A stretch of 36,515 nt of DNA from Anabaena subtropica FACHB-260. GTDB lineage: Bacteria; Cyanobacteriota; Cyanobacteriia; Cyanobacteriales; Nostocaceae. The translations under genes were made by a program, and so were the position numbers. Positions 938-1,181 of this stretch are shown here, in pieces. A model generated the notes under the pieces. The model was not told the DNA's origin, did no database searches, and worked only from the letters and a program-made list of their open reading frames with translations. The number at the start of each line of letters is the position of its first letter. Within the stretch, counting starts at the first letter, position 1. The DNA is taken from positions 1 to 36,515 of the forward strand of contig NZ_JACJRF010000051.1 in NCBI RefSeq assembly GCF_014697105.1, read 5' to 3'.

Positions 938-991
938 GTGCTAAAACTTTGCTAGATTTATGGTGGGTTGAAAGGTAAGGCAGAGGTCTGC
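938..991 (+). ncRNA. Delocalised homing crRNA targeting tRNA-Cys
   Basis: A truncated or atypical repeat ends ATGGTGGGTTGAAAG at 974. It keeps the 3' part that pairs with the tracrRNA anti-repeat but lacks the GTTTCAAC start of array repeats. It is followed by GTAAGGCAGAGGTCTGC (975-991), which is identical to 17 nt of the tRNA-Cys gene (complement of 1148-1164); the next base differs. Short truncated guides of this kind, separate from the main array and aimed at a neighbouring tRNA gene, are the known homing pathway of Cas12k transposons. The 5' limit of the repeat is uncertain. Its intactness contrasts with the decayed array. Confidence 0.87.
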
Positions 992-1019
992 CTTTGTGAT
1001 TAGTATGTTTTTGTGGTTG

Positions 1020-1104
1020 TGACACATAATCTGTTAACAGTGACATCAATTTGTTAAACATGACATCAATCTGTTAACAGTGACAAATAATTAGTTAATG
1101 TACA
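1020..1104. mobile_element. Transposon terminus with four tandem ~20-bp TnsB-like sites
   Basis: Four tandem units start with TGACA: 1020-1040, 1041-1060, 1061-1080 and 1081-1104. The first three share TGACAnnnAATnTGTTAAnA, and the last runs into the terminal TGTACA. Tn7-like elements carry arrays of 20-22-bp TnsB sites in their ends, and Cas12k transposons end in TGTACA, so this fits the outer end of the element. It is the end on the cas12k side. Confidence 0.82.
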
Positions 1105-1109
1105 TTTAA
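1105..1109. other. Possible 5-bp target site duplication (TTTAA)
   Basis: These five bases lie directly outside the TGTACA terminus and one base before the tRNA 3' end. Tn7-like insertion makes 5-bp duplications. The partner copy would be beyond the other transposon end, outside the window, so this is inferred from position only. Confidence 0.45.
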
Positions 1110-1110
1110 A

Positions 1111-1181
1111 GGCGGCACCCGGATTTGAACCGGGGGATGGAGGTTTTGCAGACCTCTGCCTTACCACTTGGCTATGCCGCC
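1111..1181 (-). tRNA. trnC: tRNA-Cys (GCA anticodon)
   Basis: The minus strand reads GGCGGCATAGCCAAGTGG at the 5' end and closes with GGTGCCGCC. It folds as a 71-nt cloverleaf: acceptor GGCGGCA/TGCCGCC, anticodon arm GAGGTCTGCAAAACCTC with anticodon GCA, and T arm CCGGGTTCAAATCCGG-like (CCCGG/CCGGG around TTCAAAT). CCA is not encoded. The gene is intact although a Cas12k transposon end lies 6 bp beyond its 3' end, which explains why tRNA 3' flanks are tolerated attachment sites. Confidence 0.97.
1148..1167 (-). other. Protospacer (1148-1164) and GTG PAM (1165-1167) in tRNA-Cys
   Basis: On the tRNA sense strand, GTG is followed by GTAAGGCAGAGGTCTGC, the exact 17 nt of the homing spacer at 975-991. 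GTG fits the GTN PAM of Cas12k. From the PAM edge (1164) to the transposon end (1104/1105) is 60 bp, within the 60-66-bp distance known for Cas12k-guided insertion. Confidence 0.87.

Follow-up and report, generated by a model that had tools for sequence, protein, structure and literature searches.

A candidate Cas12k-transposon homing guide beside tRNA-Cys, and the pairing of truncated repeats with tracrRNA across cas12k loci

A separate, truncated homing unit has been described for type V-K transposons (PMC9938897, PMC11406308, PMC11656645, PMC12719977). According to PMC9938897, it combines a truncated repeat (R*), roughly 12 nt long, with an anchor spacer, usually of 17 nt, and the target lies beside a GTN PAM. 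The target usually lies in a tRNA gene that points to the transposon's left end, and the distance from the PAM to the left end is 46-82 nt, with one exception; diverse tRNA genes are reported as most V-K attachment sites (PMC11406308). The available portions of the four sources give no reason why the homing guide would be preferred over the guides of the array.

Layout of the locus beside tRNA-Cys

The DNA analysed here (the window) is an entire contig of 36,515 bases, designated C52, from a genome of 5.8 Mb in 104 contigs. The features under study are as follows, in window coordinates.

1 to 107, minus strand: insertion-sequence end that recurs in the genome; the contig starts inside the insertion sequence
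108 to 388, plus strand: cas12k 3' fragment (NF038191 and tblastn)
435 to 654, plus strand: tracrRNA homology (nhmmer, 235.2 bits)
631 to 638, plus strand: tracrRNA anti-repeat, AACCCACC
674 to 711, plus strand: sole remaining full CRISPR repeat
712 to 727, plus strand: spacer-like stretch behind the single repeat, recurring at tRNA-Cys loci
926 to 947, plus strand: inverted repeat, a possible hairpin, before the truncated repeat
962 to 974, plus strand: truncated repeat of 13 nt, GGTGGGTTGAAAG
975 to 991, plus strand: putative homing guide of 17 nt, GTAAGGCAGAGGTCTGC
1020 to 1104, plus strand: left end of the transposon, containing TGACA-type repeats and finishing with TGTACA at 1099-1104 (terminal sequence identity; the start at 1020 was set by eye)
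1105 to 1109, no strand assigned: TTTAA, the expected target duplication
1110 to 1181, minus strand: tRNA-Cys (GCA), the target gene, intact (ARAGORN; Rfam RF00005, 68 bits)
1148 to 1164, minus strand: protospacer within tRNA-Cys
1165 to 1167, minus strand: PAM, GTG

The order of cas12k, tracrRNA, repeat, truncated repeat, 17-nt spacer, left end and a tRNA gene facing that end is the one given for V-K elements in the available passages of PMC9938897, and the window's GTG conforms to the GTN PAM described there, as does its distance of 60 bp from PAM to transposon end to the range of 46-82 nt. Unlike those elements, the window has a broken cas12k, one full repeat only and no right end that could be found. 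The passages of PMC9938897 leave the tRNA species unnamed, whereas the target here is tRNA-Cys. The window locus is a further case of this published homing layout; in the article texts searched, no paper combined Cas12k with tRNA-Cys.

A sequence-only reading of this DNA had claimed that the 17 nt following the truncated repeat match the complement of a stretch inside tRNA-Cys next to a GTN PAM, within the range 975-1167, and had taken the match for a self-homing guide at a decayed Cas12k transposon. The match was borne out over all 17 nt: reverse-complemented, 1148-1164 reads exactly as 975-991. The protospacer is preceded on its 5' side by GTG, as claimed, the range was correct, and the agreement with the published V-K layout supports the homing interpretation. 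Identity between guide and target stops after 17 nt, with base 18 differing, and a genome-wide search for the 17-mer at up to two mismatches returned the guide and target sites only. A match of this kind might also arise by chance, or as a recombination copy of the tRNA gene without any guiding role; tRNA fragments are common beside integrated elements, and partial tRNA-Cys copies were seen in relatives. However, the chance expectation for a given exact 17-mer on both strands of the window is only about 4e-6, and the length of 17, the position after a truncated repeat, the GTN PAM and the spacing recur in 79 of the 106 cas12k loci surveyed below, mostly with other target genes. An accidental origin is accordingly very improbable.

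Decay of the locus was also as described. The cas12k gene, directly upstream of the tracrRNA, is present only as a 3' fragment, reduced to its tail at the insertion-sequence end with which the contig begins. The open reading frame at 98-388 matches positions 553-626 of NF038191 with 109.8 bits, below the cut-off of 150, and the fragment matches residues 553-636 of the Cas12k on contig C30 of the same genome at 63% (tblastn). The insertion-sequence end, presumably IS1-like, is repeated over 1-107 or 1-111 at the contig ends of C22, C84 and C47 and internally in C1 and C66. One full CRISPR repeat and one degenerate repeat are left, and the tracrRNA is complete relative to a profile that was built in this analysis and to which the window sequence itself contributed. 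With its Cas12k broken, the window copy has probably lost the capacity for independent movement. CAST variants with a delocalized crRNA and no array (PMC11656645) offer a parallel in that the window likewise keeps its homing unit with the array down to one full repeat; the available part of that source does not say if they are V-K elements or members of the window's lineage. An in-frame, GC-rich, short palindromic insert is present at 326-357 of the cas12k remnant, and the C30 copy lacks it.

The best explanation for the locus, to which we give a probability of roughly 0.9, is a homing guide with which a Cas12k transposon inserted beside tRNA-Cys. Its basis is the guide, the target, the PAM, the spacing, the tracrRNA and the transposon end, together with recurrence in relatives and the transposon-free sites described below. 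The truncated repeat and the 17-nt guide would be transcribed as a short RNA, which would pair with the tracrRNA and load Cas12k. Cas12k would then bind the tRNA-Cys gene beside the GTN PAM and recruit TniQ, TnsC and TnsB, with insertion expected about 60 bp from the PAM, just beyond the tRNA's 3' end, which would leave the gene intact.

The tRNA-Cys landing site in related genomes

Window positions 640-1181 were searched against 217 genomes of the family, and at least 30 loci were kept, the window included. Among the matches listed, 21 of the 30 loci kept (again counting the window) contained the truncated repeat and guide, and 18 of these 21 had the target no more than 400 nt away, 16 with an exact match and 2 with two mismatches; for the other three, the target was not found within 400 nt. 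The PAM at the 18 loci with a target was GTG in 17 and GCG in one, and the transposon end lay 57-63 bp from it, again among the matches listed. No guide was obtained in nine of the 30 listed loci, five of which had an end on the strand inspected. The locus with the GCG PAM (L175/L091, genome G035) has an exact guide match, and its PAM may reflect either a later change or a tolerated PAM.

The sequence-only reading had named two findings that would speak against it, namely that no Cas12k element in relatives shows this layout at tRNA-Cys, and that empty sites reveal a repeat-spacer unit older than any transposon. Neither was borne out: at least 16 loci carry an exact guide together with its target, and in five genomes of the same genus (G388, G389, G390, G111 and G374) neither a transposon end nor a truncated repeat was found in the 170 nt beside tRNA-Cys, so nothing at those sites shows a repeat-spacer that preceded the transposon. 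Complete elements are present as well. In G393, of the same genus, the element spans about 9.5 kb and includes regions matching residues 1-636 of Cas12k, a CvkR-like regulator, TnsB, TnsC and TniQ, and an exact 5-bp duplication was not found around it; matching 5-bp duplications at both element ends were found in G347 (CTTTA) and G035 (CCTAA). With complete elements, remnants and transposon-free sites, tRNA-Cys is a repeatedly used landing site in the family.

The DNA of the window element is 88-92% identical in its longest matches to the elements of G393, G347, G035 and G464, while for the flanking gene identity is 73% in G393 and the other three genomes gave no match. Element DNA that is closer than its flanks would fit movement between hosts.

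The spacer-like stretch at 712-727 is nearly the same behind the single repeat in nine of the 30 tRNA-Cys loci, the window included, among the matches listed, and because a single repeat is followed there by a near-identical stretch, the array seems to have been lost in this lineage of tRNA-Cys elements. The same stretch was considered as a second homing guide or a self-regulating guide and rejected, no target being found for it in the loci scanned or, at one mismatch, in the genome. The inverted repeat before the truncated repeat was folded with RNAalifold in 13 selected tRNA-Cys elements, which gave a stem at window 926-947. For 4 of the 16 predicted pairs both partners differ in some sequence, and the covariation term is weak, at 0.06. 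A hairpin at this place was not upheld as a general V-K feature, since the mean z at -56 to -6 was -0.84 over 81 loci and four control windows gave -0.88, -0.89, -0.57 and -0.59.

In several relatives, matches to tRNA-Cys are interrupted or occur more than once. In five genomes (L181, L191, L195, L198 and L200), the match that runs through the transposon end breaks within tRNA-Cys at window 1154-1157. In G389 a partial copy of tRNA-Cys lies about 8 kb away from the intact gene, so there may be another island there; G391 and G392 have two tRNA-Cys matches about 10 kb apart, and L099, L059 and L062 belong to the same observation. These breaks and partial or double copies look like integrase-type islands on the same tRNA.

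Homing units and tracrRNA pairing across cas12k loci

Homing units were searched for in two sets of cas12k loci, a unit being defined as a repeat-like motif followed by 15 nt that occur again in reverse complement, with at most one mismatch, within 700 nt. The first set (n=66) comprised 29 and 28 loci from two cas12k collections, seven loci chosen as tRNA-Cys loci, the C30 element and the window; the second (n=40) comprised further loci of the collection that had supplied the 29. A unit was present in 54 of 66 loci of the first set, 53 of them with a GTN PAM, and in 25 of 40 loci of the second, all with GTN. The second figure, 62.5%, fell short of the more than 70% expected beforehand. Over both sets, 79 of 106 loci had a homing unit, 78 of the 79 with a GTN PAM, and 76 units remained after duplicate removal; this search returned no unit for 27 loci, including 15 from the second set. 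When the guide was read from five shifted offsets in 67 loci, 0, 2, 2, 2 and 0 matches were obtained. The target was inside a tRNA gene for 69 of the 76 units and outside for seven, and tRNA-Cys accounted for 10 of the 76, a number inflated by the seven loci selected for it. The homing unit is not rare among cas12k loci.

The eight bases that precede GAAAG in the truncated repeat face the tracrRNA anti-repeat, and this segment was compared with the corresponding segment of the array repeats. In the window, the truncated-repeat segment GGTGGGTT is fully paired with the anti-repeat, whereas the array repeat GGAGGGTT is mismatched at position 6. Position 6 was paired in 40 of 47 truncated repeats of the first set (those with a readable anti-repeat) versus 7 of 32 for the commonest array repeat, and, as expected beforehand, in 14 of 16 truncated repeats versus 3 of 10 arrays of the second set. 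Watson-Crick pairs in the second set also followed expectation, the truncated repeat having more than the array in nine of ten loci, the same number in one and fewer in none. These set-wise counts used a stricter array search that required an ending near GGGTTGAAAG, which constrains positions 1-5 and not position 6. Once the sets had been combined, duplicates removed and arrays sought under looser conditions, position 6 was paired in 52 of 61 truncated repeats versus 10 of 38 arrays; the other 15 of the 76 loci, whose anti-repeat was not readable, are outside the pairing counts. Against the commonest array repeat, the truncated repeat had more Watson-Crick pairs with the anti-repeat in 31 of 38 loci, equal numbers in seven and fewer in none, and the computed duplex energy favoured the truncated repeat in 31 of the 38, with two ties and five loci favouring the array.

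Truncated repeats and anti-repeats also appear matched to one another. The 29 distinct combinations contain 203 Watson-Crick pairs, whereas 20,000 shuffles averaged 161 and never exceeded 184. When changes were reconstructed by simple parsimony along a 38-tip Cas12k tree, the anti-repeat was found to have changed 21 times and the truncated repeat 19 times; seven changes fell on the same branch and position versus 1.1 expected, and all seven end as a Watson-Crick pair. The loci are related, and both the pairing and the tree statistics are to be read with that in mind. Counting against the pairing, 14 of the 21 anti-repeat changes lack a matching change on their branch, and 9 of the 61 truncated repeats leave position 6 unpaired, including those of L113, L117, L049, L128, L040, L156 and L159.

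Taken from sequence comparison, these counts suggest that the homing guide fits the tracrRNA better than do the element's other guides. A bolder step would be to attribute a preference for the homing guide to the fit between its repeat and the tracrRNA. V-K elements would then sort their guides by tracrRNA pairing, with the truncated repeat complementary to the anti-repeat and co-evolving with it, the array repeats mismatched mostly at pair six, and the homing guide the preferred partner; we propose this tentatively, at a little under even odds. A comparable separation is reported for type I-F3b CASTs, whose atypical crRNAs have diverged repeats (PMC11406308); there too, the homing guide differs from the other guides in its repeat. 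The effector in that system is Cascade, and TniQ is said in the available part of that source to control sorting, whereas tracrRNA pairing would take this role in the V-K proposal.

It is also possible, and slightly short of an even chance, that the array repeats are constrained to a different consensus, such as the one of a host CRISPR system which adds the spacers, and that only the truncated repeat tracks the tracrRNA under steady selection, in which case pairing strength would have no part in sorting. The array repeats in the tree set do take few forms, mostly GGGTGGGTT and AGGCGGGTT, and the available part of PMC11406308 includes the suggestion that V-K arrays are served by type I-D adaptation. 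Nothing decisive speaks against arrays held in this way, as both readings predict the same sequences. The proposal of sorting by tracrRNA pairing offers a testable reason for the preference of homing over array guides and, if true, would answer how V-K elements choose between the chromosomal site and other targets and would bear on guide design for V-K tools; the cross-locus result thus weighs more than the single locus. In a literature search by title and opening abstract, nothing was found on pairing between truncated repeat and tracrRNA, and such a report may already be in print.

Other V-K material in the same genome

Contig C30 carries another V-K element (L009), with an intact cas12k, a MerR-type regulator and three full repeats. 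Its guide at 7305-7321 targets 7577-7593, which is the 3' end of mutS and not a tRNA gene, with a GTC PAM and 58 bp to the end. The C30 and window elements have the same 8-nt segments in anti-repeat and truncated repeat, and the terminal 23 bp of the window left end are identical to ends on C30, C38 and C46. The exact terminal sequence was found on these three contigs and on C52, and with three mismatches on C10 and C33.

These identities bear on whether the window unit might still act in trans, the Cas12k of C30 taking up the window guide or the C30 transposase moving the remnant. The intact cas12k on C30, the common 8-nt segments, the identical 23-bp termini and a window tracrRNA that is complete against the partly window-derived profile speak for it. 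No right end was found for the window remnant, however, and a perfect guide is equally compatible with recent decay; activity in trans is possible, though we consider it rather unlikely.

Neither the right end of the window element nor a second copy of TTTAA was found in the genome's contigs. The ends on C38 and C46 were rejected as its right end, their flanks fitting neither TTTAA nor the C30 flank, GCTAA, and the tns genes on those two contigs are unlinked to the window left end. Synteny was also abandoned as a route to the right end: matches to the 9 kb on the left side of tRNA-Cys in G389 were short and spread over C15, C52 and C1, and open reading frames left of tRNA-Cys in relatives, compared with the examined loci of the window's own genome, gave one close match (95%, on the other strand) and one distant match (32%). 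A location of the element on plasmids was likewise dropped, the search giving one record that covered 22% of the query at 75% identity. Positions 850-924 of C81 hold a shred of cas12k, about 25 codons long, of which 23 residues align to the C30 Cas12k at 96% identity; it was rejected as the far side of the insertion-sequence break, as no insertion-sequence end of that kind lies alongside it in 1.7 kb.

The right ends at C38 (43097) and C46 (2788) are accompanied by tnsB and tnsC, and their flanks match neither left end of the genome; there may be more than two V-K elements in this genome, or rearrangements. Outside this genome, L035 (G168) has a guide that differs from that of C30 by one base and a target that is not a tRNA gene, which is probably mutS as well.
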